Below the pieces are notes generated by a model, which saw nothing but the letters and a program-made list of their open reading frames with translations, had not been told where the DNA came from and did no database searches. From assembly GCF_000420345.1 (NCBI RefSeq), contig NZ_ATUT01000003.1, forward strand, positions 1 through 64,000: 64,000 nt of DNA, given 5' to 3'. Of the stretch, positions 5,477 through 42,460 are shown piece by piece. Position numbers and translations under genes: made by a program. Numbering within the stretch: the stretch's first letter is position 1; the number at the start of each line of letters is the position of its first letter. This DNA is from Faecalicoccus pleomorphus DSM 20574. GTDB lineage: Bacteria; Bacillota_I; Bacilli_A; Erysipelotrichales; Erysipelotrichaceae.

Positions 5477-6022
5477 CTACTTCTTACCAGCTGTCTTACC
5501 TTCCTTACGACGGATATATTCACCTTTATAGCGAATACCTTTTCCTTTGTAAGGTTCTGGCTTACGAACAGCACGAACATTAGCAGCAAATTCACCAACA
5601 AGTTGTTTATCGATTCCAGATACACTGATTTCAGTAGCACTTGGACAAGTTACATCCAATCCTTCCGGAATCTGCATTTCTACCTGATGAGAATAACCAA
5701 CATTCATCGTTAAAGTATTTCCTTTTACAGCGGTACGGAAACCGATACCAACCAGTTCCAGTCCTTTCGTAAATCCTTCAGAAACTCCTACGACCATGTT
5801 ATGTAACAAAGCACGAGTCGTACCATGTAATTGTTTAGTGTGTTTTTCGTCATTTGGACGTACTACAGTGACCTCAGTTCCCTCAACGTTGATCTGCATC
5901 AAGTCAGAGAACTTACGAGATAAAGTTCCCTTAGGACCTTTTACAGTCACCTCATTACCTGCAGCGACTTCCACACTTACGCCAGCAGGAATGGTAATCA
6001 GTTTATTCCCGATACGTGACAT
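5477..6022 (-). CDS. rplF: 50S ribosomal protein L6
   Basis: A 181-residue L6 with two repeated alpha/beta domains. The C-terminal signature [21 protein letters not shown] is intact. It binds 23S rRNA near the sarcin-ricin loop. Spacing to rpsH and rplR is short, in the standard spc order. Confidence 0.97.
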
Positions 6023-29504: not shown

Positions 29505-31241
29505 CTAAGCCATCTCCTTTCCAAAGGATTGAGAAGCACATATTTCCTGATAAATCGAATTGTTTTGGATCAAATCTTGATGTTTTCCATAGCCAACAAG
29601 TTTTCCATCATCCATGACCAATATATGATCGGCATCATAAATGGCGGATACGCGCTGCGAAATAATAAAGACCGTTTGATTTTTCGTATTTGTTCGAATC
29701 GCATGGCGCAATCTGGCATCCGTCGCAAAGTCAAGTGCCGAAGCGCTGTCATCCAAGATCAGTATATCCGGATTTCCAACCAAAGCACGAGCGATGGTCA
29801 ATCTTTGTCTTTGACCACCGGAAAGATTGCTTCCTTTTTGAAGAATTTCCAGATCCAATCCTTCTTTCTTTTCCTCAACAAATTCTCTAGCCTGTGCAAT
29901 ATCTAAGGCCTCTAGTATTTCTTCATCTGTAGCATTTCTCTTTTTTAATTGCATATTCTTTCTTAGTGTTCCGGAAAATAATGTCGCCTTTTGTTCGACA
30001 AAGCCAATATGTTCACGAATCGAGAAAGGAGAAAGTGTACCGATTTCTTTTCCATATAAATAAATTTTTCCTTTGGTACGATCATAAAACCGGCACAAGA
30101 GATTGGCCAACGTGGACTTTCCGGCACCGGTAGCCCCAATGATTCCAATCGTTTCTCCCTGTTGTACTTGAAAGCTAATATCCTGCAACACTTCTTTTCC
30201 GGATTTCGCATATTGAAAACTGACATGTTCAAAAACAACTGCCGGAACATCTTTTATACAATTCAGATCTTCTAAATTCGAATCGGACTTCTCTAAAAAG
30301 GAAGGTACGTCAAAAATCGCATTGACACGTCCCAGACTCGCAAAGGCTCTGGATAAAAGAATGATCAGATTGGCCAGTTTGACAAGTTCTGTCAGAATTT
30401 GAAACATGTAATTGATCAAGGCAATAACTTCCCCTTGTGTCAATTCTCCCGCATTCACCTGCAGACCGCCAAAATATAGAATCGCAACAACGCCCAAATT
30501 AACGATCATATAGGTCAAAGGGTTTAATAATGCGGAAATCTTACCGACAAAGATTTGTTTTTGATACAGTGTATCTGTTTCCTGATGAAACTGTTCTTTT
30601 TCTTCGTCTTCTCTGGCAAAAGCACGCACTACACGAATACCGGTTAAATTCTCTCTTGTCTTCAACAAAACTTTATCCAATATCTGCTGCACCTTTTTAT
30701 ATAAAGGCATAGTCATCAACAAAATCGCAAAAACAACGATCATTAAAACCGGAATAACAACCACAAAAATCATGGCCGCCTTTACATTTACGCCAAAAGC
30801 CATAACCATAGCCCCAAATACAACAAAAGGAGAACGTAAAAATAGGCGCAAAAACATATTCAAGCCATTTTGTACCAGATTGATGTCATTGGTCATTCGG
30901 TTGATCAATGTCGATGTACCGATACGATCGATTTCCTGGAACGAAAATGTGTTGATATGAGCAAACAAATCTTTACGCATGGATTGCCCTAAGCTGACTG
31001 CCGATTTGGCGGCAAAGTATTGTGCCGTCAAAGAAAAGGCAAAACCGATGATTCCTAATAAAATCAGTAGCGCTGTCATCTTCCATAAAAAAATCGCATC
31101 CTTTTGGGCAATCCCCACATCAATCATCTGGGCAACAACCAGCGGAACAAACAGTTCAAAGGTTGCTTCTAACATCTTGAACAAAGGCGCTAAGATCGTG
31201 ATCAATGGATAGGCGCGTAAATAATGATATAATCGTTTCAT
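29505..31241 (-). CDS. Heterodimeric ABC exporter, subunit with degenerate ATPase site
   Basis: A 578-residue half-transporter with six transmembrane helices. The nucleotide-binding domain has Walker A GATGAGKST and signature LSGGQRQR. The catalytic glutamate after Walker B is Asp (LILDDSASALD), and the switch histidine is Gln (IISQRVSA). This is the known pattern of the degenerate partner in heterodimeric exporters. It is transcribed divergently from a LysR gene that may control it. Confidence 0.92.
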   Translation of the reverse strand: MKRLYHYLRAYPLITILAPLFKMLEATFELFVPLVVAQMIDVGIAQKDAIFLWKMTALLILLGIIGFAFSLTAQYFAAKSAVSLGQSMRKDLFAHINTFSFQEIDRIGTSTLINRMTNDINLVQNGLNMFLRLFLRSPFVVFGAMVMAFGVNVKAAMIFVVVIPVLMIVVFAILLMTMPLYKKVQQILDKVLLKTRENLTGIRVVRAFAREDEEKEQFHQETDTLYQKQIFVGKISALLNPLTYMIVNLGVVAILYFGGLQVNAGELTQGEVIALINYMFQILTELVKLANLIILLSRAFASLGRVNAIFDVPSFLEKSDSNLEDLNCIKDVPAVVFEHVSFQYAKSGKEVLQDISFQVQQGETIGIIGATGAGKSTLANLLCRFYDRTKGKIYLYGKEIGTLSPFSIREHIGFVEQKATLFSGTLRKNMQLKKRNATDEEILEALDIAQAREFVEEKKEGLDLEILQKGSNLSGGQRQRLTIARALVGNPDILILDDSASALDFATDARLRHAIRTNTKNQTVFIISQRVSAIYDADHILVMDDGKLVGYGKHQDLIQNNSIYQEICASQSFGKEMA

Positions 31242-31279
31242 ATTCCCGTTCCTTTCTATTCTACTTTAAAAGGTTCTGT

Positions 31280-31285
31280 TATAAT
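31280..31285 (+). promoter_or_regulatory. Extended -10 promoter of the LysR gene
   Basis: TGTTATAAT lies 27 bases before the LysR ATG and 38 bases from the divergent ABC exporter start. No clear -35 box is seen. The 70-base gap between the genes would hold any LysR operator. Confidence 0.6.
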
Positions 31286-31311
31286 GATTTCAAATCGAAA
31301 AGAGGCTTTTT

Positions 31312-32190
31312 ATGACTTTGGTTCAATTACACTATTTTAAAACCATCTGTAAATACAACAATTTAACACGAGCCGCCAAGGCTCTGCACATTTCCCAACC
31401 TACATTAACGCATGTGATTCATGACTTGGAGCAGGAATTTGGCATTACTTTATTTCTGCGCCAGAACAAGGGTTTGGTCTTAACTAAGCAGGGACAAGAT
31501 TTTTTAAATGAAGCCAATCTATTACTGGAACAGGCAGATGCCTTTTCCAATCGAATGAAGTTTTTAGGCCATACGCATCAAGCGGTGCAATTTGGCCTGT
31601 CCCCGGCCAGTTCCACCTTATATTTTCCTTTGATTGCGCAAGCTTTATATCAACAATATCCACAGATTCAAACGATTCTTGTGGAAAACGGAAGCATGTT
31701 GAACCGACAAAAAATCATTGATGGAAAACTAGATTTAGCCATCATTTCATCAAATGCTCCTATACCTTCTACATTAGGTTCCTACAAAATCGCAAACACC
31801 AGAGTTTGCCTGTTTGTTCATAAGGAACATCCTTTGGCCAAAAAGAATATGTTATCGATACAAGAAATCAAGGAGCAACCTTTGGTCATGTTGTCCGAAG
31901 AATCTTTTCTTACTACCGCAACCATCAGCCAATGCATGCACTATAAGATTGATCCCAATATCATTTTAACAACCAACCAGATTTCTATTATCAAACAGCT
32001 GGTGACCAACAAAATTGCCGCTACTCTCCTTTTTGAACATACTTTACCGGACGATCAAGAATATGTATCGATTCCGGTAACAGAGTTTCAAGCAATTCAG
32101 ATTTACTTGATCTGGAATCAGTATAAGCAGATGACACCTGCCATGCAGCATTTGATCGAAGTGACCAGGCAAGTGTATCCAAATAACTAA
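31312..32190 (+). CDS. LysR-family transcriptional regulator
   Basis: A 292-residue protein with an N-terminal winged helix (TRAAKALHISQPTLTHVIHDLE) and a C-terminal substrate-binding domain. AGAGG precedes the ATG. It is divergent from the ABC exporter pair and is the last host gene before the integrated island. The ligand is unknown. Confidence 0.93.
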   Translation: MTLVQLHYFKTICKYNNLTRAAKALHISQPTLTHVIHDLEQEFGITLFLRQNKGLVLTKQGQDFLNEANLLLEQADAFSNRMKFLGHTHQAVQFGLSPASSTLYFPLIAQALYQQYPQIQTILVENGSMLNRQKIIDGKLDLAIISSNAPIPSTLGSYKIANTRVCLFVHKEHPLAKKNMLSIQEIKEQPLVMLSEESFLTTATISQCMHYKIDPNIILTTNQISIIKQLVTNKIAATLLFEHTLPDDQEYVSIPVTEFQAIQIYLIWNQYKQMTPAMQHLIEVTRQVYPNN

Positions 32191-32311
32191 TTCGTTCCTT
32201 ATTGTAATCGTATTATTAAAAAAACACCAATACATATAAATTAGTGTGTCATAAATTTTATTTATGAACATTTCATATCTTATGCCAGAAAGAAAACAAC
32301 AAAATTAAAAA

Positions 32312-32419
32312 TTTTTAGTACCAAACGAGTATCACAAGCCAAAAAGAAAAGCCCTTATCTGCTTTAGATAAAGGCTTTTTCTTATATATTTTGTCTTCGT
32401 TAAATTACTTAACTTCAAC
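32312..32419. repeat. Left attachment repeat (rplL 3' end copy)
   Basis: It aligns without gaps to 40514-40621, with mismatches only at 32321, 32327, 32338, 32385 and 32388. It includes a second copy of the rplL terminator and the last five codons plus stop of rplL. Upstream of 32312 is host DNA after the LysR gene, and similarity stops at 32419. The gap from 32191 to 32534 holds this repeat and AT-rich DNA, with no gene. Confidence 0.9.
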
Positions 32420-32534
32420 TTCTTTGCGATTTATTTTTATTATTCCACCTATATATAAGGCATATTTAGTGCTTTTTATTCCTTATATTTTATATAAAGA
32501 ACAATGAAAATAGAATTTCAGTATCAAATTAGTA

Positions 32535-32951
32535 TCATTTAGGTAGATCAGAATAGAGCTTTTCATACTGCTCTACGGCCTCCCTTTTTAGTCTAAACCC
32601 CTCACCGGGTGTAATGTGCATAAAGCCCGATATTTTCTCTATATCCCAATGGTAAAGATAATACCCTTCGAGCATTTCACTATAAGGCTTTTCCATTTTT
32701 TCTATACGCTCTTTTATGAGCCACCATTTATTGTGCTTTGCCAATCCCGCCTCTGCTGTCTCACGTTCCAAAGAATCAATATAGATGAACTTCTTCAAGG
32801 TTGGATCACTGACCTTCTGATCATAGGGGATCTTGTCATACTGAACCGCCTTGACATCGTAAAACGTTGATTTCGCCTTTTTGAGCTTATCCATCATGTA
32901 CCACCATTCTTCTGTTAATATGGCCAATTCCTCAAAGTCGTTCATTTCCAT
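32535..32951 (-). CDS. ArpU/RinA-like phage late-gene regulator (probable)
   Basis: A 138-residue protein. The C-terminal part YYLYHWDIEKISGFMHITPG followed by FRLKREAVEQYEKLY looks like the sigma-region-4-like helix-turn-helix of the ArpU/DUF1492 family. Members of that family switch on phage packaging and lysis genes. The N-terminal half is rich in Trp, Lys and Glu. GGAGAG precedes the ATG at 32951. It lies just after the capsid-gene terminator and ends inside a GTATCA repeat near the island end. The family assignment is by pattern only. Confidence 0.55.
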   Translation of the reverse strand: MEMNDFEELAILTEEWWYMMDKLKKAKSTFYDVKAVQYDKIPYDQKVSDPTLKKFIYIDSLERETAEAGLAKHNKWWLIKERIEKMEKPYSEMLEGYYLYHWDIEKISGFMHITPGEGFRLKREAVEQYEKLYSDLPK

Positions 32952-32965
32952 TTTCTCTCCATTCT

Positions 32966-33004
32966 TTTAAAAAATAGGACACCCCGGGGGAGAGGTGCCC
33001 TATA
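32966..33004 (-). terminator. Terminator after the capsid gene
   Basis: On the minus strand a stem of ATAGGGCACC and GGTGTCCTAT with one mismatch is followed by six T residues. It lies about 70 bases after the capsid stop and only about 15 bases before the ArpU-like gene, so that gene needs read-through or its own promoter. Confidence 0.85.
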
Positions 33005-33074
33005 TGCAGTCTGTTATTACCTTTTCTTTGCTAAGCCACTTTTGCGAATAAGGAGTTAATACCTTTCTGTAAAT

Positions 33075-33914
33075 CTACTCCGCTGTTACAGCCTGGTAGT
33101 AGATAGCGTTCTTCTTATTCTCTAAAACAAAAGCGTCATATACAATTCGACCCTCTACAAGATCACCACTGATCCCAGGTGGGTCACTGTGCACCTTATA
33201 ATCTTCCAATTTGGCCGGTGCTACGGTAGCCACCTTATGGCATACCATAAAGCCAAATTGAGCCGGTAAACGCTTGGCCGGTACTTTCACTACTGAAAGA
33301 CCGTCAACCATAGCAATGACACCCTGTAGGCGCTGTTCCTGTGCCACATCACTGTCTAGTGTGATGTCCGGGCACTGTTTTAACAGTTTGTACGTTGTAG
33401 GGGTCACGATCAAGACACGGCCTGTGTCCGGGGCCTCTGCGTCGTCCAAAGCCTCAGTGGCCTTCAAGATCTCGTCATAGATATTTGTTTCTGTCAATTC
33501 AATGGCAGAAGGCGTATTTCCGGCCCCTGTGCACATTTTATTGAATACATAGGTATCTACTTCGGGGATAATGACTTCACGCTCCTGTCGGGCTAAAGCA
33601 CTTGCTCCGGCTAGCTGTTGTGCTGTTTCGTCTTTGTCCATTTTATCAATGGCAAAGGTGAAAGATCGATCCTTTGTCAATGTGAGTTCTTCTGTTGTTG
33701 CATTAAGGCTTGCAACGGTACCATATCTAGAATTACCTTCATTCGTTCCCTCACGGTCGTAGTCGTTCATGGTAGCAGTGCTGATCTTATAGACCTTGAC
33801 TGTATGAGCGCCTGTCCATGTGAAATCGTTATTCGTTACAAGGCTCTTCTTGGCCTCTGTCGTGAACATCTCATCAACGTAGGGCTCAAATTTTGTGACT
33901 AAATCAATAGCCAT
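33075..33914 (-). CDS. Phage major capsid protein (HK97-fold type)
   Basis: A 279-residue protein that reads like the major capsid proteins of Firmicutes siphophages: DLVTKFEPYVDEMF at the start, then SFTFAIDKMDKDETAQ and a C-terminal GRIVYDAFVLENKKNAIYYQ. It would assemble the shell with the scaffold encoded directly upstream. No delta domain is fused to it, which fits a separate scaffold. GGAG lies before the ATG at 33914. It is 18 bases after the scaffold gene. Confidence 0.85.
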   Translation of the reverse strand: MAIDLVTKFEPYVDEMFTTEAKKSLVTNNDFTWTGAHTVKVYKISTATMNDYDREGTNEGNSRYGTVASLNATTEELTLTKDRSFTFAIDKMDKDETAQQLAGASALARQEREVIIPEVDTYVFNKMCTGAGNTPSAIELTETNIYDEILKATEALDDAEAPDTGRVLIVTPTTYKLLKQCPDITLDSDVAQEQRLQGVIAMVDGLSVVKVPAKRLPAQFGFMVCHKVATVAPAKLEDYKVHSDPPGISGDLVEGRIVYDAFVLENKKNAIYYQAVTAE

Positions 33915-33932
33915 TGTTTATCACTCCTTTAT

Positions 33933-34448
33933 CTATTCTTTAGGAGCAAAAGCAGATTTTAAATTGTCATTGTTGCCTGTTTTGAATTTATCGCCATGAA
34001 TGGGCGGTTTCCCTTTTAGAAATGCTTTCTTGATCTCATATTCTTTATCATCTAAAACCTTTTTAAAGACATTCAATACATGAGTATAACTCTCTTCAAA
34101 TTCGTCTTTATTAGATAAATTCATGAGCGCGATCAATTCTGTAGGAAGTCCTTCTTTCAAAAGGCGTTCCCGACCTTCTGCTCTAAACTCCCTTTGTGTT
34201 ACTTCTCGTTCTCTTCGATCCAATTCCGTTTCTACCGGGTTTAGGATCTTTTCAAATTTTTTGTGCTGTTGTGCAAGTCTTCGCTTTACAATTCTTTCTA
34301 AGTCTTCCTCTGAAAACTTCTTGACCTTTTTAGGATCTTCTTCCTCGCTTTTTTCAGCACCTTCTGTCTGTTGTTCAGTAGTGACAGCCTCTACTTCTTC
34401 CGGGTTTTGTTCGTTTTGGATTCCCTCAACCATTTCTTCTTGTGGCAT
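33933..34448 (-). CDS. Phage scaffolding protein (DUF4355-like)
   Basis: A 171-residue, highly charged, helical protein. An acidic Glu/Gln-rich N-terminus is followed by a coiled-coil segment (SEEDLERIVKRRLAQQHKKFE and ELDRREREVTQREFRAEGRE) and a short basic C-terminus likely to bind capsid. This is the normal pattern of scaffolds that precede such capsid genes. I use the ATG at 34448, which has AGAGAGG upstream. A longer reading reaches into the hairpin region and gives an unlikely sequence. Confidence 0.82.
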   Translation of the reverse strand: MPQEEMVEGIQNEQNPEEVEAVTTEQQTEGAEKSEEEDPKKVKKFSEEDLERIVKRRLAQQHKKFEKILNPVETELDRREREVTQREFRAEGRERLLKEGLPTELIALMNLSNKDEFEESYTHVLNVFKKVLDDKEYEIKKAFLKGKPPIHGDKFKTGNNDNLKSAFAPKE

Positions 34449-34508
34449 GTATTGCCCTCTCTTTCTATGCCTTTTAAGCGCAAGGCCTAGCGCCTTTTGA
34501 GGTGTCGC

Positions 34509-34634
34509 GCCACGCTGAATAGAACCAAAAATAAAAGCGTGGCTCCTCGACCTTAAACAAGGGGATTCCCACGCTGAAAATATGAATAGAGGAATAAAAA
34601 AGCGTGGGATCATGAAAAACATACTTTCCCACGC
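34509..34634 (-). other. Duplicated stem-loop array upstream of the scaffold gene
   Basis: Two hairpins share sequence. One has arms GCCACGCT (34509-34516) and AGCGTGGC (34536-34543). The other has arms TCCCACGCT (34567-34575) and AGCGTGGGA (34601-34609). Both loops contain GAATAGA and an A-rich AATAAAA stretch, so the unit was duplicated. A third half-site TCCCACGC lies at 34627-34634. The array falls in the 5' leader of the scaffold-capsid transcript. The whole gap 34449-34872 has no convincing gene. Possible roles are a packaging or origin site, or an RNA control element. Confidence 0.7.
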
Positions 34635-34692
34635 CCGGAGTTAGGCTTACTTTGATAAAAGGGAAAACGTCAATTAAGAACCCTTTAATCAT

Positions 34693-34731
34693 TGCGGTAC
34701 TTATGGCTATATTATACCATGCCTTACCGCA
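34693..34731 (-). promoter_or_regulatory. Promoter inside a palindrome, for the scaffold-capsid genes
   Basis: On the minus strand a TGG-extended -10 box TATAAT (34711-34716) sits at the centre of an inverted repeat with arms TGCGGTA (34693-34699) and TACCGCA (34725-34731). No consensus -35 box is present, as expected for an activated or operator-controlled late promoter. Transcripts would run through the stem-loop array into the scaffold gene. Confidence 0.6.
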
Positions 34732-34872
34732 TTTATATACCTTATAATCAAGTGAAAAGCCCCTTATACAAGGAGCTCCACTTTTTACGCTTTTGTGTTT
34801 AGCTGAATAAGAATGATGTCAAATCCCATGCTTAGACTGTCCTCAGACTCGACTCAGCCCATAGGTATTATA

Positions 34873-35031
34873 TCACATTTCCGGCCAATCGGTTAGTTTG
34901 TCCGATTCTTCTTTTAATCTCTCGTATTCTTTATCAAGTTCTTCCGAAGAAAGGCCGGAGAAAATAATACCGTCATAATAGCCTAAAGTTTTTTCCTCTT
35001 TGTCCTTACCTTTTTTCTTCTTTTTAGCCAT
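34873..35031 (-). CDS. Small lysine-rich protein, unknown
   Basis: A 52-residue ORF that starts MAKKKKKGKDKEEKTLGYYDG and ends with a helical EELDKEYERLKEESDKLTDW segment. AGAGGTGA precedes the ATG at 35031. It follows the 121-residue acidic protein gene by 12 bases. Basic N-termini of this sort occur in small phage proteins, but no family is recognised. Confidence 0.65.
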   Translation of the reverse strand: MAKKKKKGKDKEEKTLGYYDGIIFSGLSSEELDKEYERLKEESDKLTDWPEM

Positions 35032-35043
35032 AATCGCTCACCT

Positions 35044-35409
35044 CTATATAGCACCTAATATTTCCTCTAGTCCCTCACGAAGTTGTTCTTCGTTTATACA
35101 GTATGGATCATGAGCTACAATTTCATCGCACGGATCATATCGATCTGCAAGTTCCCATATTCGTGACACGATAGTATTCTCGTCATTTCGATCATTAGGA
35201 TCAGCAGAGTACTCCAAATCTTCCTCATGATCCACCCAAAATTGATCAACATAGTTACAGTATTCCTTAGCTGTCATTGAGTTACCACTAAGAAAATCCT
35301 TTGTGTGATCAATAAAGCTATTATAGGGTGTCTTTGATCGGTCATATGTATCTATTTGTTTGCATAACTCTTCTAAGTCTAGTCTATCATCTACTATATA
35401 GCTATTCAT
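35044..35409 (-). CDS. Acidic small protein, unknown
   Basis: A 121-residue, strongly acidic protein (many Asp and Glu; for example VDHEEDLEYSADPNDRNDE) with no membrane segment. I use the ATG at 35409, which has GAGGGG upstream, rather than an upstream start with no ribosome binding site. The charge pattern would suit a DNA mimic or an antirestriction-like protein, but that is speculation. Confidence 0.65.
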   Translation of the reverse strand: MNSYIVDDRLDLEELCKQIDTYDRSKTPYNSFIDHTKDFLSGNSMTAKEYCNYVDQFWVDHEEDLEYSADPNDRNDENTIVSRIWELADRYDPCDEIVAHDPYCINEEQLREGLEEILGAI

Positions 35410-35488
35410 TGTTACCCCTCTAGTTACATTATACCCCATTTCCTCGCGTGCGCGCGTATATGTTGGCCTTTGTTGGTTAAGCCATTAA

Positions 35489-35511
35489 AAAGACGAGCCT
35501 TTCACTCGTCC
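35489..35511 (-). terminator. Terminator with a stop codon in its loop
   Basis: On the minus strand GACGAG and CTCGTC pair and are followed by TTTTT. The TGA of the 48-residue gene lies in the loop. It ends the primase-side transcript before the acidic-protein gene. Confidence 0.75.
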
Positions 35512-35648
35512 TTTAACATTACATAGGCTTTCTTGTATGGCCCTTCATTGTTCTTTGATCTCTTGACCTTCTTGATCTTGCCCTTGAATCGAGAAAGAAC
35601 CCTGTATAGCTCTTTCTCGTCTTCATAGCTTACTGTGAGCTTAATCAT
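35502..35648 (-). CDS. Very small basic protein, unknown
   Basis: A 48-residue ORF that begins MIKLTVSYEDEKELYRVLSR and continues with a lysine-rich KGKIKKVKRSK stretch. The short beta-alpha pattern resembles small phage proteins of the early region. Its ATG at 35648 overlaps the stop of the gene before it by eight bases, and a GGGG-rich sequence lies upstream. It ends in a terminator hairpin. Confidence 0.65.
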   Translation of the reverse strand: MIKLTVSYEDEKELYRVLSRFKGKIKKVKRSKNNEGPYKKAYVMLKDE

Positions 35649-35952
35649 ACTTATACCCCGTCAGCTCATACATCCACGCCTTAAAATCTTTGTATGAGGC
35701 GTTATCTGTGCCTTTCTTACGGAGATAATTCAGCACACTGTAGTACATGGCCATATGGTTATGGTCATACCGCTCTTTGTTGCTCTTTTGGCCGTTGTAA
35801 TAACCATATCTATAAATATCTGAAAGCCATTCGTCCATACTTTCTGCATTCATGATCAAGGCCTTACACTCTAGAATTGTTACATACCCCATACCTGGCA
35901 TATCTTGTACCTTTTCTCTAATTTGTTCGATCATATCTTCGGTGATAATCAT
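35641..35952 (-). CDS. Small protein, unknown
   Basis: A 103-residue protein rich in Tyr and Met (SDIYRYGYYNGQKSNKERY). It is probably helical and cytoplasmic. It sits between a 50-residue gene (19 bases upstream) and an overlapping 48-residue gene. The layout suggests one early operon that begins at the Cro-like gene. I do not recognise the family. Confidence 0.7.
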   Translation of the reverse strand: MIITEDMIEQIREKVQDMPGMGYVTILECKALIMNAESMDEWLSDIYRYGYYNGQKSNKERYDHNHMAMYYSVLNYLRKKGTDNASYKDFKAWMYELTGYKYD

Positions 35953-35971
35953 AGTTTTTTTCCTCTTCTTT

Positions 35972-36124
35972 CTAAAAACACTTTCTTTGTTTAATTACAT
36001 AGATTTCATACGATAAAACCGCTAAAATACACTCTTGCATTGTCAAATCCGGATTTTTCTTTTTAAGCTCTCTCGCCGTTTTTAAAACACTGCTTTCTAT
36101 AAAATTCACTGTCCAATCTGACAT
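35972..36124 (-). CDS. Small protein, unknown
   Basis: A 50-residue protein starting MSDWTVNFIESSVLKTARE. The ATG at 36124 follows AGAGAGG with good spacing. A longer reading from a TTG at 36223 lacks a ribosome binding site and would cover part of the repeat region after the primase gene. Function unknown. Confidence 0.6.
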   Translation of the reverse strand: MSDWTVNFIESSVLKTARELKKKNPDLTMQECILAVLSYEIYVIKQRKCF

Positions 36125-36189
36125 TGTTACGTCCTCTCTTTCTATATATGGTAGTCTTTTTATGTATCCATTCCCTATGATGTTGTGGT

Positions 36190-36330
36190 GAAGGGCAAGT
36201 TGAGTTAAGTTGTTATACTTCAAATCTCATATTGTCTATCTATTTGACTCAATTTGACCCAATAGGGCAATATGAGTAAGTATTGATTATATAAGGCTTT
36301 TTTCTCAATTTGTCCCTCTATCAATGGGTC
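36190..36330. other. Candidate replication origin after the primase gene
   Basis: This AT-rich stretch holds three copies of CTCAA(T/C)TTG: 36197-36205 (inverted), 36248-36256 and 36304-36312. It also holds an inverted pair CTCATATTG (36226-36234) and CAATATGAG (36268-36276), and a GACCCA/TGGGTC pair (36257-36262, 36325-36330). Iterons next to the primase-helicase gene are where phage-inducible islands keep their origin. No gene covers most of 36125-36329. Confidence 0.5.
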
Positions 36331-38150
36331 TATAGAAGTTTGTCCTCTTCGGGTAGCGAAATAAACCATTTTACGCCTTTTTTATCCCCTTTTCCCTCAC
36401 ACCTCATTTTGACCTTTTTGGACGAATTGAGTTCTTCTTTTGCGTTTCTAATGGTTTTGTCAGATATTCCGGCCTCTTTTAAGGCTGTATTTAAATCCTT
36501 GATATTCATTTCCCCTTGATCCTCAAGAAGGTCAAGTATCATCTGCTTTGCCTCATCTCTTGCCGGTGCACTTCGTTCAAGTTTCTTCTCATGCACAAAG
36601 TCCCAATCTTTCTTTTCGGTTGATCCTAAGAACTTAGGTACCTGGTCCACAAGCATATAGAGCACTGTCTTATTTAATGGCGCATAATTGCTTTTAGCAT
36701 GGTCAAGGTACAAGCTCCCGTTTTTGGTCTTACCCAAAAGGAAGGCACTTCTCGCGATGTCGAATATATCCGAGCTATCCGCAAAACGGCCTCTCCCGGA
36801 GCGATCACTCATCTTATTAGTGTGCATGACAATGATCATGGTTGTACCGGTCTCGGTGCCCAATGCTACTAAAGGATTAAGTGCGTCTCTCATCTGATTC
36901 CTGTAGCCCATATTTACATTAGGGGGCAAAAAGCTCTGTAAAGGGTCAAATATACATCCGTCCGGCCTATGCTCCAAAATTGTATTTTTGAGTGTTTCGC
37001 TATTGAATTTCATGTATTCAAAGTTGGGATCAGTATAAGGCACGCTTAGAATATTGCTCATGTTTGCCCCATTACTGATCAGACGTTCAGATAAGACCTC
37101 TTCCAATTCGTCCTCTGAGCTCAATACAAGAAACTTCATAGGCTTTCTTGGGTTACTACTGAACTCTATAGGATCTTCAAAGAAACAGGGCTTTCCGGCA
37201 CTCAGACAAGCCACTATATGGCACCAAAGAAATGTTTTACCCGTCCCACCATCAGCACCTATCAGCGTGATCTTCCCCTTTGGAATCCACCCCGGTATCA
37301 GCCATTCAATGGGTTTAGGTTGTACATCAGCCATTGAAACAAGGCTAACTTCTTTCGGTATGTCTTCTCTCTCGTACTCGTCAAAGTTATTTATAGACGG
37401 AAATACTTCACTCTCAAGCTCTTCCTCACTCAAGGGTGGTACACACTTATTTTCATTGATATTTCTGATCATAGCCTTTATGGCCTCATCATCCGCCATA
37501 TTTCCTTTAAAGGTGTGACGACCAATAGCTTTAACTAGATAGTCAGTTCGCCCACCTTCCGGCACCATAGCAAGATTCTGTGAGGATTGTGGTAGTGTTT
37601 CTTTTTTAGTCATGGCCTTAAACTGCATAAGTTCGAGCACGCTCTCATTTGCCTCTGCCGGCTCAATATCGTTAAGCCACTCGTAGTATTTTCCTCTATA
37701 TATAGAAGGTGGCGCTATAATACAATTCCTGTCACCTCGTGTATCAACTCCCGGCAAAATATTACTTCTTCCTTTTATGTGGATCTCTTGAGGCACCTTA
37801 AAATAATAATGACGGCCACCTGTAGTAGTCTTTGCCATACGAGTATTAGGAAAGGCTCCGTGCTCTGCTTGCCACTTTTCAATAGATTCAAAGCCATTTA
37901 CACCATTTCTCTTATGCTCCGGACTGTCAACATCAATAACACAAACATTATCCCTGTTCCCGTGACCAGTTCCAATGGCTATATTCCCCGACCAATTTTG
38001 TACCGGTGTTTTTCTAAGCTTTCCCGGCCAATCTTCACCGGCTAAGAAAATGACTTTTTTACTTCCATCTTCCTTTGTGCTAAGCTTTATAGGGGTGATA
38101 TAAAGGCCTTGCTTTATGTAGGAGTTGGCAAAGTCTTTAAGACTCATCAT
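36330..38150 (-). CDS. Primase-helicase (prim-pol domain plus RepA-like AAA domain)
   Basis: A 606-residue replication protein. The N-terminal prim-pol domain (about residues 1-190) shows the acidic motif VCVIDVDSPEH, then TTTGGRHYYFKV and GVDTRGDRNCIIAPPS. The central helicase domain has Walker A GADGGTGKTF and a Walker B-like CIFDPLQSF. The last 80 residues form a winged helix (GISDKTIRNAKEELN). It would start replication of the excised island. Its ATG overlaps the stop codon of the Xis-like gene, so the two are co-translated. Confidence 0.88.
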   Translation of the reverse strand: MMSLKDFANSYIKQGLYITPIKLSTKEDGSKKVIFLAGEDWPGKLRKTPVQNWSGNIAIGTGHGNRDNVCVIDVDSPEHKRNGVNGFESIEKWQAEHGAFPNTRMAKTTTGGRHYYFKVPQEIHIKGRSNILPGVDTRGDRNCIIAPPSIYRGKYYEWLNDIEPAEANESVLELMQFKAMTKKETLPQSSQNLAMVPEGGRTDYLVKAIGRHTFKGNMADDEAIKAMIRNINENKCVPPLSEEELESEVFPSINNFDEYEREDIPKEVSLVSMADVQPKPIEWLIPGWIPKGKITLIGADGGTGKTFLWCHIVACLSAGKPCFFEDPIEFSSNPRKPMKFLVLSSEDELEEVLSERLISNGANMSNILSVPYTDPNFEYMKFNSETLKNTILEHRPDGCIFDPLQSFLPPNVNMGYRNQMRDALNPLVALGTETGTTMIIVMHTNKMSDRSGRGRFADSSDIFDIARSAFLLGKTKNGSLYLDHAKSNYAPLNKTVLYMLVDQVPKFLGSTEKKDWDFVHEKKLERSAPARDEAKQMILDLLEDQGEMNIKDLNTALKEAGISDKTIRNAKEELNSSKKVKMRCEGKGDKKGVKWFISLPEEDKLL

Positions 38151-38368
38151 CTCATCACCCCACAGCGTTCCATAAAGTACTTACGTGGAACTCGTCCGGC
38201 TACTGTATAGTAGCCCTTTTTCTTTAGCTCTCCGTTCATGGATCGCATAAGCTCGTAGGCCTTACCTTTGGATACTTTGAGCATAGACATTACCTCATCT
38301 ACAAAGATGAAATATTGATCCTTGATCTCTTGGTACCCCTCTTTAAATTCTTCATGCATCTTAATCAC
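38147..38368 (-). CDS. Excisionase-like small helix-turn-helix protein
   Basis: A 73-residue protein with a winged-helix pattern (FVDEVMSMLKVSKGKAYELM, then a YYTVAGRVPRKYFMERCG wing), like the AlpA/Xis-type proteins of Gram-positive phages and islands. It probably steers the integrase toward excision or acts as a regulator. It overlaps its neighbours on both sides by four bases. Confidence 0.65.
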   Translation of the reverse strand: MIKMHEEFKEGYQEIKDQYFIFVDEVMSMLKVSKGKAYELMRSMNGELKKKGYYTVAGRVPRKYFMERCGVMR

Positions 38369-38571
38369 CTCTTTTCTAATAGATCTTCAAGTTTCATGCC
38401 TAATGCGTCCGCAATCTTCTTGCCTGTCTCATAGGTGCATGATCCGCCATTGCAGACTTTATTCAGCGTAAAACGAGCCACTTCTGATTTCTTAGCTAAT
38501 TCAATCTGTGTTATGTCACGATCATACAAGACACCTCTCAATAGCTTTGCGTCTATTCTCATCTTTCTCAC
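38365..38571 (-). CDS. Cro-like repressor (XRE helix-turn-helix)
   Basis: A 68-residue protein made almost wholly of an XRE domain (ITQIELAKKSEVARFTLNKV and a C-terminal ALGMKLEDLLEKR). It is divergent from the main repressor gene and is the first gene of the early operon, as Cro is in phages and Str in SaPI islands. It probably binds the same operators. Confidence 0.8.
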   Translation of the reverse strand: MRKMRIDAKLLRGVLYDRDITQIELAKKSEVARFTLNKVCNGGSCTYETGKKIADALGMKLEDLLEKR

Positions 38572-38591
38572 CTCGCTTTTTTAGGTTTCTT

Positions 38592-38684
38592 TTGCAACCT
38601 CAATCACATTATAATGGTTGCATTTGTAACTGTCAATAAGTAAAAATGTTTTCTTTTGCAACCTATAAAAATGTCTGTTATTAT
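38592..38684. promoter_or_regulatory. Divergent repressor/early promoters with three operator half-sites
   Basis: The leftward early promoter is consensus on the minus strand: TTGACA (38631-38636), 17 bases, TATAAT (38608-38613). The rightward repressor promoter is TTGCAA (38656-38661), 17 bases, TATTAT (38679-38684). A shared motif TTGCAACC occurs at 38592-38599 and 38656-38663, and inverted as GGTTGCA at 38616-38622. These copies overlap the spacer of the early promoter and the -35 box of the repressor promoter, as operators would. Confidence 0.82.
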
Positions 38685-38696
38685 ATAAACGGTGAT

Positions 38697-39314
38697 ATGA
38701 TGAAATTTGGTGAGAAAATAAAAGAGCTACGAGTCTCGAAAAAAATGACACAAAAAGAACTTGCTGAAAAAGCAAATGTTGGAATGTCTACGATCAAACA
38801 ATATGAGCTAGGATACAGAAAGCCAAAAATAGAAAATCTCGAAAAAATCGCAGAAGCTTTAGGTGTAAGTGTCTTTGAATTTTATAGTGACAGCATAAAA
38901 GATTTTAAAATAGCCTTATCTAGCAAATTAGAAAAATCTGAGCTAGATAAGTTAGCAAGTTACTTATATGTAGAGCTAGGTATGGAAATCGTACCTATAA
39001 ATAAAAATAAATACATGATAAAATTTGACGAATTAGACTCTTCTATAGAGCAGTTCAAGGCTCCTAAAGAACCTATATTAGTCAGCGAAAATTATTTATT
39101 AGATTTAAAAAGTAAAATCAATGATTGCTTATTACAAGAAATTAAGTCATTGATTAACTCAACTGAGGCACTAAATAAGATATTAAACAATCCGAATTTT
39201 GATTTTTTGAATTCCAAATTTGATAAACATTTAGATGAGGAATCAAAAAAGAAAATAGGAGACTTCTTAGATTGGTACATGGATAAGTATTGGAAAGGGA
39301 TATACAAAGATTAG
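38697..39314 (+). CDS. Island master repressor (XRE helix-turn-helix, no peptidase domain)
   Basis: A 205-residue protein with an N-terminal XRE domain (KMTQKELAEKANVGMSTIKQ, then YELGYRKPKIENLEKIAEAL). The C-terminal part is helical and shows no S24/LexA-type serine-lysine protease motif. It therefore should not cleave itself after DNA damage. Release by a helper-phage protein, as with Stl in SaPIs, is a fitting model. I start it at the ATG at 38697, after GGTG. The neighbouring ATG at 38700 is equally possible. Confidence 0.8.
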   Translation: MMKFGEKIKELRVSKKMTQKELAEKANVGMSTIKQYELGYRKPKIENLEKIAEALGVSVFEFYSDSIKDFKIALSSKLEKSELDKLASYLYVELGMEIVPINKNKYMIKFDELDSSIEQFKAPKEPILVSENYLLDLKSKINDCLLQEIKSLINSTEALNKILNNPNFDFLNSKFDKHLDEESKKKIGDFLDWYMDKYWKGIYKD

Positions 39315-39449
39315 ATAAAATAAAAAAGCCCCTCAGTGCGCCAACACTGAAGGGCCAGGACGTAAAAAAACTTCACTACCACATGAAAGACTTTTTACGT
39401 GCCTATTTTATCAAATTTCGATTAGAATTGAAAGGTAGGTAGAAACATT
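39315..39449 (+). terminator. Hairpins between the repressor and integrase genes
   Basis: Two stem-loops fill the gap. One pairs CCCCTCAGTG with CACTGAAGGG, and the next pairs ACGTAAAAA with TTTTTACGT. Neither has a strong T tail on the plus strand. They may end or attenuate repressor transcription so that the integrase is expressed less. Confidence 0.45.
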
Positions 39450-40511
39450 ATGCCCGTTTACAAAGATGAAAAAACTAACACATGGTACTGTAAGTTCTAC
39501 TATGAGGACTATACAGGAGCTAAAAAGCAAAAATTCAAGCGTGGTTTCAAGCTCAAGAAAGAGGCACAGGAGTATGAAAAACAATTTCTAGTGCTCCACA
39601 GTGAAGATAATACCATGCTTTTTAGCACCCTCATAAAGGACTATAAACGTGACATGTATACACGCTTTAAGCCTTCCACGATAGAAAGCCATGAGAATAT
39701 CATAAACAAGCATATAGCACCATTCTTTAATAATTTACCATTGAATCAGATCACCCCTAAAACTGTGAGGAAATGGCAAAACGAACTCTTAGAAAGCCCT
39801 AAAACGTATTCTCAAAGCTATCTGAATACGATCTACACCCAATTAGTGGCTATATTCAATTATGCAATCAAGTATCATGGACTTAAGCAAAATCCGGCCT
39901 CTCTCTGTGGCTCCATAGGCAAAGCCAGGGCTAAAAGAGACATGACCATATGGACTTTAGACGATTTCAAGCTATTTCTCACCTATGAAGATGATCCACT
40001 GTACTATTGTGCTTTTAACATTCTGTATTATACCGGTATGCGCATAGGTGAGCTTATGGCCTTAACATGGGATGATATCGACCTTGAAAAGAAAGAAATC
40101 CATATATCTAAATCCTTGCAACGCTTTAATGGCATAGAGCATATAACAGCCCCTAAGACCGCCAAAAGCGTTAGATCTATCGTGATTTTCGACCATTTAA
40201 TAGAAATACTCAAAGAATACAAAAAGCGCCTGTATGAGTCCAATACTGACCGATTATTCAATGTTACAAAGTCAAGTTTTGGAAGAGAGCTCAAGAGGAA
40301 AGCAAAACTAGCCGGACTTCCGGAAATACGTGTACATGATCTTAGACATAGCCATGCAAGCCTTTTAATTGAATTGGGTTTTAACCCTGTAGCCATAGCT
40401 GACAGACTAGGACATGAAAGTATCAAGATCACGCTAGATACATACAGCCATTTATACCCTAATAAACAGGATCAAATAGCCCAAAAGCTTGAAGAAATAA
40501 GTAAAAATTAA
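39450..40511 (+). CDS. int: Tyrosine-recombinase integrase
   Basis: A 353-residue phage-type integrase. An N-terminal arm-binding domain (YKDEKTNTWYCKFYYED) and a SAM-like core-binding domain precede the catalytic domain. Catalytic residues are visible: Arg in TGMRIGELMAL, His-Leu-Arg in VHDLRHSHASLL, His in RLGHESIKITLDTY, and the nucleophile Tyr in TYSHLYP. It lies next to the right attachment repeat, as expected for the enzyme that recombines at rplL. Confidence 0.95.
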   Translation: MPVYKDEKTNTWYCKFYYEDYTGAKKQKFKRGFKLKKEAQEYEKQFLVLHSEDNTMLFSTLIKDYKRDMYTRFKPSTIESHENIINKHIAPFFNNLPLNQITPKTVRKWQNELLESPKTYSQSYLNTIYTQLVAIFNYAIKYHGLKQNPASLCGSIGKARAKRDMTIWTLDDFKLFLTYEDDPLYYCAFNILYYTGMRIGELMALTWDDIDLEKKEIHISKSLQRFNGIEHITAPKTAKSVRSIVIFDHLIEILKEYKKRLYESNTDRLFNVTKSSFGRELKRKAKLAGLPEIRVHDLRHSHASLLIELGFNPVAIADRLGHESIKITLDTYSHLYPNKQDQIAQKLEEISKN

Positions 40512-40513
40512 TT

Positions 40514-40621
40514 TTTTTAGTATCAAACTAGTATCACAAACCAAAAAGAAAAGCCCTTATCTGCTTTAGATAAAGGCTTTTTCTTACATGTTTTGTCTTC
40601 GTTAAATTACTTAACTTCAAC
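40514..40621. repeat. Right attachment repeat (rplL 3' end)
   Basis: This copy of the 108-bp direct repeat is joined to the body of rplL. It supplies the gene's last five codons, stop and terminator. It begins three bases after the integrase stop. Its outer part contains AGTATCAAACTAGTATCA, a motif also found twice near the left end. Confidence 0.9.
40543..40585. terminator. Bidirectional terminator shared by rplL and int
   Basis: AAGCCCTTATCT and AGATAAAGGCTT form a stem flanked by A-rich and T-rich tracts on both sides, so it can end rplL on the minus strand and int on the plus strand. The same structure is duplicated in the left repeat at about 32341-32383. Confidence 0.9.
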
Positions 40622-40975
40622 AGTAGCACCAGCAGCAACCAATTTTTCTTTGATCTGTTCTGCTTCTTCTGGGCTAACGTTTTCTTTGATAGCAGCTGGA
40701 GCACCATCAACCAGTTTCTTAGCATCTACTAATCCTAAACCAGTGATTTCACGTACTGCTTTGATTACAGCAACTTTAGTTCCACCTACATCTGTCAAAG
40801 TTACAGTTACTTCGCTTGGTCCAGCAGCAGCTGCTTCTTCAACTGGAGCAGCAGCTACAGCAGCAGCTGCAACGACACCGAATTTTTCTTCGATTGCGCT
40901 TACTAAGTCATTCAGTTCTAAAATTGTAGCTTCTTCTAAGTAAGCAAGAATATCTTCCTGAGTTAATTTAGCCAT
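40607..40975 (-). CDS. rplL: 50S ribosomal protein L7/L12
   Basis: A 122-residue stalk protein that recruits translation GTPases. The N-terminal dimerisation part ([20 protein letters not shown]), an Ala-rich hinge ([17 protein letters not shown]) and the C-terminal domain ending [17 protein letters not shown] are intact. The island uses its 3' end as an integration site. The last codons now come from the attachment repeat without changing the protein. Confidence 0.98.
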
Positions 40976-41010
40976 TTTCTTTTTCCTCCTATGTTATTTT
41001 GTTAGGCAGC

Positions 41011-41583
41011 TTATGCAGCAGCCTCTGTTGCCTCTTCTGCCTGAGCAGGAGCGGCTTCTTCTTTTGCTTCTACCTCTTTTACTTCAAATGTACCATTTTC
41101 TTTAGCTTCAGCTACAGCCTTAACAGTCATAGCAAACTTGATCAATGGTGCATTCAGGCAAGAAGCGAACTTAGCCAACATACCTTCTTTGTTCGGTAAT
41201 GCAGACAATTTTTTGATCGTATCTGTATCGACCATGTCGCCATCAACGATACCTGTCTTTAATACAAGTGCTTCGTGTGTTTTGGCAAATTTAGCCAATA
41301 CACGAGCAGGAGCCACTGGATCTTTCCCAAAAGCTAAAGCGTTTGGTCCGATCAAGTCTTTTGCGAAATCATCGTAACCTAATTTTTCAGATGCACGACG
41401 AGCAATTGCGTTTTTATAAACTTTGAAATCTACTTCTTCTTTACGAAGATCTCTACGCAATTCATTGATTTCGGCAACAGTCAATCCACGGTATTCAACC
41501 AATACGATGGAGCTGGCATCCTTCATCTTGTCAGCTAAGGCGTTAACGTTGGCTTCCTTTTGAGCAAGGATTTGTTGATTCAT
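41011..41583 (-). CDS. rplJ: 50S ribosomal protein L10
   Basis: A 190-residue L10, the base of the L7/L12 stalk. Its C-terminal helix, ending in an Ala/Glu-rich tail, carries L12 dimers. I start at the ATG at 41583 (MNQQILAQKEANV), with AGAGGTGG before it. An upstream GTG lies inside that ribosome binding site. It is preceded by a long leader with an attenuator. Confidence 0.96.
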   Translation of the reverse strand: MNQQILAQKEANVNALADKMKDASSIVLVEYRGLTVAEINELRRDLRKEEVDFKVYKNAIARRASEKLGYDDFAKDLIGPNALAFGKDPVAPARVLAKFAKTHEALVLKTGIVDGDMVDTDTIKKLSALPNKEGMLAKFASCLNAPLIKFAMTVKAVAEAKENGTFEVKEVEAKEEAAPAQAEEATEAAA

Positions 41584-41773
41584 TCGTTCCACCTCTTTCT
41601 ATTTATTGTAACAATATCCAAAAGAAAACCCGCATACAAGACGCGGGTCAATGGAATGCATTTCAAAAACTACTAGCATCAACCCTCGGTAACAAATTAA
41701 GTTCAATGAACAGTTACTGTCTTTGGAATATTGATAACAATCTAAATTTTACTGATTCTGGTGTTTTTGTCAA
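41584..41773 (-). ncRNA. L10 leader with promoter and attenuator
   Basis: On the minus strand a promoter TTGACA (41768-41773), 16 bases, TAAAAT (41746-41751) drives a leader of about 150 bases before rplJ. Near its end ACCCGC (41628-41633) and GCGGGT (41643-41648) pair and are followed by TTTTCTTTT, an intrinsic terminator upstream of the gene. In Bacillota L10 or its complex with L12 is known to control rplJL through such a leader. Confidence 0.75.
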
Positions 41774-42460
41774 TTATCTTTCGATTGTAACATGGATACC
41801 AGGACCCATTGTTGTAGAAAGAACTAAGTTTTTCATGTAAGTTCCTTTTACAGTTGTTGGACGAGCTTTGGCGATCGTGTTGTAGATTGCACGGAAGTTT
41901 TCAATCAATTTATCATCTTCAAAGCTTACTTTTCCGATCATAACATTGATGTTTCCTTCTTTATCTACACGATATGTTACTTTACCTTTTTTAACTTCGT
42001 CCACAGCTTTGGCAACATCCATTGTTACCGTACCTGTCTTAGGGTTAGGCATTAAACCTTTAGGTCCTAATACACGACCTAAACGTCCTAACTGACCCAT
42101 CATATCTGGTGTAGCGATCAATACATCAAAATCCATCCAGCCTTTCTGGATCTTTTCGATGATATCAGCACCACCTACAAAATCAGCTCCGGCTTCCTGA
42201 GCTTCTTTTTCCTTGTCACCCTGTGCTACAACACATACCTTCTGTGTTTTACCGGTTCCGTTAGGCAGAACCATAGCACCACGAATCTGCTGATCCGCAT
42301 GACGAGGATCTACATTTAAGCGGAAGTTTACTTCCACACTAGCGTCAAATCCACATTTTCCAGTCTGTTTTGCCAAAGCAACAGCTTCTTCGATAGGATA
42401 CGTTTTGTTACGATCTACCAATTTGCTGACTTCAGCATAGCGTTTACTTACTTTTGCCAT
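41774..42460 (-). CDS. rplA: 50S ribosomal protein L1
   Basis: A 228-residue L1, the protein of the L1 stalk that helps release E-site tRNA. Conserved parts include [31 protein letters not shown], and the C-terminal [11 protein letters not shown]. It follows rplK by 14 bases. Confidence 0.98.

Follow-up and report, generated by a model that had tools for sequence, protein, structure and literature searches.

What purpose is served by the long hairpins that lie before a phage scaffold gene in Faecalicoccus pleomorphus DSM 20574? The hairpin region is located on the minus strand of the window, the 64,000-nt stretch of DNA that was analyzed, with the scaffold gene on one side and a 52-aa ORF on the other. 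The gap it occupies spans 34449-34872 and measures 424 bases, as an earlier note had reported; that note offered a packaging site, an iteron cluster, or an RNA element controlling capsid expression as explanations. The reading favored here, at a probability of roughly 0.6, is that the region forms the scaffold-capsid transcript leader of a phage satellite, where it acts as a transcription attenuator.

The leader is part of a phage satellite island of 8248 bp (32339-40586, with no strand assigned) at the 3′ end of rplL. The island is bounded by 46-bp exact direct repeats (32339-32384 and 40541-40586), which are enclosed by a longer imperfect repeat that extends into the terminal part of the rplL ORF. 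It encodes a scaffold protein (gene 33933-34448, minus strand, protein 33936-34448; phrog_172 head scaffolding, E 7.9e-12), a major capsid protein (gene 33075-33914, minus strand, protein 33078-33914; phrog_422 major head protein, E 4.5e-64), a Prim-Pol/AAA protein (36333-38150), an integrase (39450-40511), and two HTH proteins. The Prim-Pol, integrase, and capsid genes are the only ORFs of at least 250 aa. Among the ten island proteins scanned, no portal or terminase was recognized, and scaffold and capsid are the only head or packaging proteins identified. Judged by its sequence, the integrated island is a satellite-type element. The cf-PICIs, as described in PMC10803314, are satellites that encode their own capsid proteins and average 14 kb. 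The window island shares the capsid proteins with them but differs from that description in its size of 8.2 kb and in carrying scaffold and capsid with no recognized portal or terminase; the module of own portal, protease, capsid, and terminase that characterizes cf-PICIs is not found in it.

Three GC-rich perfect stems are present in the hairpin region, termed d:e (34509-34543), b:c (34567-34609), and a:b (34602-34634). Hairpin d:e joins GCCACGCT to AGCGTGGC, and hairpin b:c joins TCCCACGCT to AGCGTGGGA, both on the minus strand. These are the two long hairpins with related stems of the earlier note, and they exceed chance by far. Between 34301 and 34900, four perfect 8-bp arm pairs with at least six G-C letters are found, which correspond to the three hairpins, one of them counted twice through a one-base shift. 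In 2000 dinucleotide shuffles, the mean was 0.0065 and the maximum 2 such pairs, and the whole 64-kb window holds five, four of them at the hairpin region. The overall folding of the 261-base stretch is only mildly better than that of its shuffles (z −1.82 for the minus strand, −2.64 for the plus strand).

The arrangement of the stems is explained by a tandem duplication. Positions 34576-34635 and 34517-34575 are diverged tandem copies, and a third copy starts at 34516; the alignment of the 60-nt with the 59-nt unit scores 11.5, which was matched by 2 of 2000 shuffles. In each copy, a loop separates a 5′ from a 3′ half-site, and a U-rich tail follows. The first copy holds P2, a terminator-like hairpin (34600-34636, minus strand) that is made of half-sites a and b, has a predicted energy of −17.8 kcal/mol, and is followed by a U-run (34596-34601). 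The second copy of this terminator half (34527-34575, minus strand) contains half-sites c (34567-34575) and d (34536-34543) and the tail UUUAUUUUU. A third, partial half-site e (34509-34516, minus strand) is recognized from the tandem-copy alignment and its perfect pairing with d. Because the unit is repeated in tandem, half-sites recur at a spacing of about 60 nt, and any two neighbors can pair, hence b:c and d:e. Taken alone, the stems amount to −17.8 (a:b), −15.5 (c:d), −13.3 (b:c), and −11.8 kcal/mol (d:e). A leader cut at the first U-run folds a:b, and one cut at the second folds a:b and c:d; in the fold of the whole leader, d:e takes the place of c:d. Hairpins b:c and d:e are thus out-of-register pairings across the two neighboring ~60-nt tandem copies of the P2 half. 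The duplicated P2 half is evidently a peculiarity of the window island: the conserved element described below has one P2 per copy, and the direct repeats of the window, two copies and a partial third, fall outside it, which leaves the iteron option unsupported. The third half-site of the earlier note is indeed present (34627-34634, pairing with 34602-34609) but is no leftover, as it forms the conserved hairpin a:b. The compensated stem ends reflect divergence of the copies within one island rather than changes of b:c and d:e from island to island.

Evidence for selection comes from related elements. Capsid searches returned many virus contigs and, within the order, two genomes (L003 and L043) whose capsid proteins are 66-68% identical. 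In the closer relatives, a common plan precedes the scaffold gene: an extended −10 element, AGUACC[CG]C, a hairpin P1, AGYC, a linker, P2 with a 5′ arm that mostly reads GGCRYGGGAA, and a U-run. Pattern scans of the viral_contigs collection that made no use of the capsid gene yielded 32 and 33 stretches. Nine of the 33 loci (L165-L168, L170-L172, L174, and L178) had no model match and were taken as chance; the scan with 32 stretches also included loci that no model matched, such as L131, L132, L134, and L138. A DNA search with the whole leader covered 315 genomes from the order; outside the window, it gave matches in 8 genomes that are all short and resemble chance, and the best of these (G041) sits inside an unrelated gene. 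A structure-blind MAFFT alignment (A3) holds 30 distinct elements, obtained from 34 by omitting L003, L050, L065, and L074. The model R1 was built on these 30 elements. Of the loci supplied to it, it matched 26 of 49 and 36 of 97; of the genomes, it matched 3 of 309 from the order and 1 of 392 sampled from the phylum, that one being the window's own; the filters of the genome search are stricter and may miss weak matches, as G065 went unreported though its L003 scores 40.8 bits. The total is 49 elements, 45 of which are distinct below 92% likeness. One leader copy is found in the window's own genome. L180 carries two element copies (5580-5650 and 5787-5857, minus strand) about 200 bases apart.

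The window core is recognized by a model that had not seen it. R2, trained without the window and L043, scores it at 44.2 bits (E 1.7e-7), and it is the sole match in the 64 kb at E up to 10. The conserved core (34596-34701, minus strand) runs from AGUACC through P1, AGYC, and P2 to the U-run. P1 (34649-34695, minus strand) is supported by folding, by covariation in the 30 elements, and by G.U and C-G pairs like those of the relatives; some P1 pairs of the window fail in the alignment, which counts against the attenuator reading. Next to P1, a GCC segment (34644-34646, minus strand) can pair with the GGC at the foot of P2 (34633-34635). A possible leader peptide of 8 codons with a TTG start is located at 34673.

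Upstream of the core, an extended −10 promoter element (34711-34719, minus strand; TGGTATAAT) predicts a transcript start at ~34700-34705. The sequence TGnTANNNT occurs at most 60 nt upstream of 40/45 elements, compared with 5.3 in shuffles and 1/44 and 3/44 in control stretches; the perfect TGnTATAAT is present in 28/45, compared with 0.46 in shuffles and none in control stretches. Without the six elements that were found through a TATAAT pattern, the counts are 34/39 and 22/39. Since the promoter-like sequence keeps a fixed place, transcription would start close to the start of the conserved element. A T-run closes 43 of the 45 elements. A promoter directly upstream, as an attenuator needs, is thus found by sequence, and a terminator hairpin with a U-run before the first gene is indicated by the covariation of P2 and by the T-runs. 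A point against the attenuator reading is that consensus scans of the window reported neither a −35 box nor a terminator; the terminator scan admits loops of 3-8 only, and that of P2 is longer.

In A3, 95.8% of the 448 cells of P1 and P2 are paired, compared with 78.3% after shuffling and 39-51% when the partners are slid, and double-sided changes occur in 81 cells where 28.6 are expected from shuffling. Near-invariant positions are AGUAC, the first two bases of AGYC, and the greater part of GGGAA in the P2 arm. The pairing and its double-sided changes argue that both hairpins are structures under selection, and these would most simply act in the RNA. The covariance analysis of homologous leaders that the earlier note had suggested therefore turned out positive for P1 and P2 (a:b). 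The stems for which conservation had been expected, b:c and d:e, fall outside the conserved alignment, and it is the overlapping a:b that is conserved.

An attenuator additionally requires an alternative helix that excludes the terminator. In the leader, three bases that follow P1 can pair with the triplet that forms the foot of the 5′ arm of P2. The post-P1 triplets are GCC, GUC, GCG, GCU, and GGC, and those at the P2 foot are GGC, GAC, CGC, AGC, and GCC. All 90 cells of this helix are paired in A3 (slid controls, 9-54%), and its covariation score is 0.443 versus 0.164 after shuffling. A rule-based test, with L057 and L058 assigned by hand and L074 scored as unpaired, found full pairing in 33/34 elements (permutation mean 21.9; 0 of 20,000 permutations as good). 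Among the 19 rows of the R2 alignment outside its training set, which include the window and L043 (both in A3) and one antisense match in L169, 18 are fully paired (permutation mean 15.4; 419 of 20,000 as good). The helix is absent from L084. As the bases at the P2 foot cannot serve both helices at once, the layout is that of an attenuator. With just three conserved pairs, the competing helix is far weaker than P2, and it would therefore need help from a factor or from kinetics.

A closing helix, P0, may form between the 5′ end and the U-run with the bases beyond it. Across 34 elements, its mean duplex energy is −12.3 versus −9.2 (sd 0.48) kcal/mol, none of 5000 permutations was as good, and in 14 of the 34 at most 6 of 66 controls were as good. 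P0 is not supported in the window, where 37 of 66 mispaired controls are equally good. In L057, L071, L095, L150, L152, and L003, the 5′-terminal bases that precede AGUACC are complementary to the U-run together with the bases that come after it; this pairing, which was not seen in the window, would close a three-way junction in the readthrough RNA.

The genes behind the element suggest what it may control. According to tblastn, the 45 elements are followed by scaffold and/or capsid genes (32), terS (3, two of them with terL), portal-protease-capsid genes (2), a sigma factor only (3), or nothing recognized (5), within a downstream stretch of up to 5 kb that was often shorter. Capsid or packaging genes thus lie downstream on the same strand in 37/45. 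The share of 32 scaffold/capsid cases is biased because most of these 32 came from the capsid search, through which the terS and portal cases were not found. The terS, terL, and portal assignments were checked with PHROGs; terS of L140 has no PHROG match, and its assignment rests on likeness in place. Together with the covarying leader and the promoter-like sequence before it, the capsid genes behind it bear out the option of an RNA element that controls capsid expression. A sigma-70-type factor gene, an assignment supported by Pfam and NCBIfam for examples, is found downstream of 15/45 elements (e.g., L056, L062, L067, L177, and L182), and this factor might drive a later promoter. Tail genes lie near the element in L182, and their membership in an element-led operon is not supported. 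In L150 and L155, a gene for a cold-shock-domain protein comes first after the element (Pfam CSD for the L150 protein). A conserved protein of ~270 aa (MYCVIQ...) adjoins the element upstream or downstream in L152, L155, L169, and L176; that of L169 is phrog_32441, of unknown function. L069, a 7.4-kb contig, carries the element, scaffold, capsid, and a downstream terL-like match, so that cargo combinations vary among elements.

Some carriers of the element form a family of small satellites. Beside the window island (32339-40586), L050, L057, L062, L068, L070, L073, L086, L106, and L113 are assigned to a family that, by eye, seems to carry scaffold and major capsid protein without a portal- or terminase-like ORF; their large ORFs, part of which were scanned, are by eye mostly primase/helicase, integrase, capsid, and sigma factor. 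Terminal direct repeats of 46-127 bp occur in 9 of the 28 element-bearing contigs checked and correspond to circles of 7.6-10.4 kb. L072 (950-1028 and 9463-9541) repeats itself exactly, shifted by 8513 bases, throughout the 2945 bases that allow comparison, and is either a concatemer or a circular satellite as assembled.

The proposed mechanism would start with RNA polymerase initiating just upstream of AGUACC at the extended −10 element and transcribing P1. By default, P2 would then fold, and its stem together with the U-run would end transcription after ~105-110 nt, which would keep the capsid genes silent in the integrated island. Alternatively, the P2 foot could base-pair with the post-P1 segment (GCC in the window). 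If this helix prevails, or a factor that recognizes AGUACC/P1/AGC and GGGAA, polymerase would read through into the scaffold and capsid genes; an antitermination signal may favor the competing helix or modify the polymerase. In the window, the tandem duplication of the terminator half would place two terminators in series to guard the capsid genes. We infer that transcription ends at P2, that the short helix keeps it from ending there, and that readthrough is signaled on satellite or helper-phage induction. No regulator for the leader was identified, and this counts against the attenuator reading. A broader proposal is tentative and on the doubtful side: a new family of RNA switches would gate the structural genes of Bacillota phage satellites, with the same ~105-nt leader before scaffold-capsid, portal-protease-capsid, and terminase genes sensing a helper-phage or satellite factor via AGUACC/P1/AGC, so that capsid is made only on induction.

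The strong promoter-like sequence and the terminator-like hairpin around a conserved core would also suit a short terminated RNA of ~105 nt that ends at P2 and acts in trans as a satellite small RNA, the capsid genes being merely downstream. This is unlikely, as same-strand capsid or packaging genes follow 37/45 elements (most found via the capsid gene) and as the competing helix is what an attenuator requires.

A DNA packaging site (cos or pac) with incidental hairpins has a slim chance of being correct. Satellites need such a site, and the element is located at the border of early genes and head/terminase genes, where cos sites are often found. The element nevertheless conserves base pairs rather than strict sequence, begins at a promoter-like sequence and ends with a U-run on the coding strand, and is missing from the phage loci and regions covered. 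R1 was negative on 22 loci of phage or prophage-like type whose capsid genes are 44-57% identical; most of them come from Anoxybacillus and Geobacillus, and one (L028) is a degraded remnant. Ten phage regions, selected because they carry related terS, terL, portal, or capsid genes, gave no model match either (best 14.1 bits, E 0.71), and a blastn search of the phage collection with two elements returned short stray matches only; no sign of a phage that shares the leader was found. Contigs with terS/terL and portal genes were considered as helper phages and rejected: they are short (L140 6.5, L155 5.6, L158 6.3, L164 9.2, and L169 5.5 kb) and indistinguishable from satellites carrying such genes. 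The packaging option gained no support.

P2 could also be a plain, unregulated terminator that shields the capsid genes from transcripts arriving from upstream, the capsid promoter lying elsewhere. Terminators are common at operon borders of mobile elements, and the capsid loci of more distant phages show, by eye, a T-run before the scaffold gene without the AGUACC core. Such insulation would make the conserved core, the adjacent promoter-like sequence, and the covarying competing helix all superfluous and is quite improbable. That the stretch is coding, as a 72-aa ORF (34474-34692) or an N-terminal extension of the scaffold to 34622, can practically be discounted: both frames are open, but no Shine-Dalgarno-like sequence precedes 34692, the scaffold of the relatives begins after the element, and conservation tracks base pairs.

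The attenuator reading has several counterparts among known systems. The trp-type attenuators consist of three segments, the middle one of which pairs with either neighbor. The satellite leader has the same three-segment alternative pairing but differs in that no conserved leader peptide is seen and the competing helix has three conserved pairs. At lambda pR′-tR′, a promoter and an early terminator precede the late genes, and Q binds DNA at the late promoter. The satellite leader resembles this order of promoter, early terminator, and late genes, whereas its conserved features are RNA base pairs, and no Q-like protein was identified. Neither put of phage HK022 nor EAR of Bacillus subtilis eps, both named in PMC11658703, is known to have a terminator fused to it as in the satellite leader. 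By description, both are leader RNAs that let polymerase pass terminators. PMC11658703 also describes canT of Tn916, a cis-acting RNA that opens transfer genes kept behind terminators in a Gram-positive mobile element, and thus a precedent for such control. Compared by description, canT differs in that it targets terminators further downstream in a conjugative element, whereas core and terminator form one unit before the capsid genes here.

No Rfam 15 family at gathering score falls on the element within 31000-42000 of the window, where the L10 leader was found as a positive control, or on the elements of eight relatives, L155, and L069. An identity with GP20-a or GP20-b was rejected, as no such family matched. 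The ribosomal protein L10 leader itself (RF00557, 63.8 bits) is located at 41614-41744 (minus strand), as expected before rplJ. The literature search returned no paper on the element; PMC8040213, a catalog of candidate RNAs from human microbiomes, might include it. The leader would thus be an attenuator-type RNA without an Rfam family, not a new category, and would differ from canT, put, and EAR as these are described.

As long as it is integrated, a satellite must keep its capsid genes silent, and it has to turn them on once a helper appears. If the reading is true, a conserved attenuator before the capsid genes would provide a testable handle on this switch, a sequence signature for finding satellites with packaging genes, and possibly an RNA-level regulatory part. 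The puzzling repeat of the window would be explained as a duplicated terminator.
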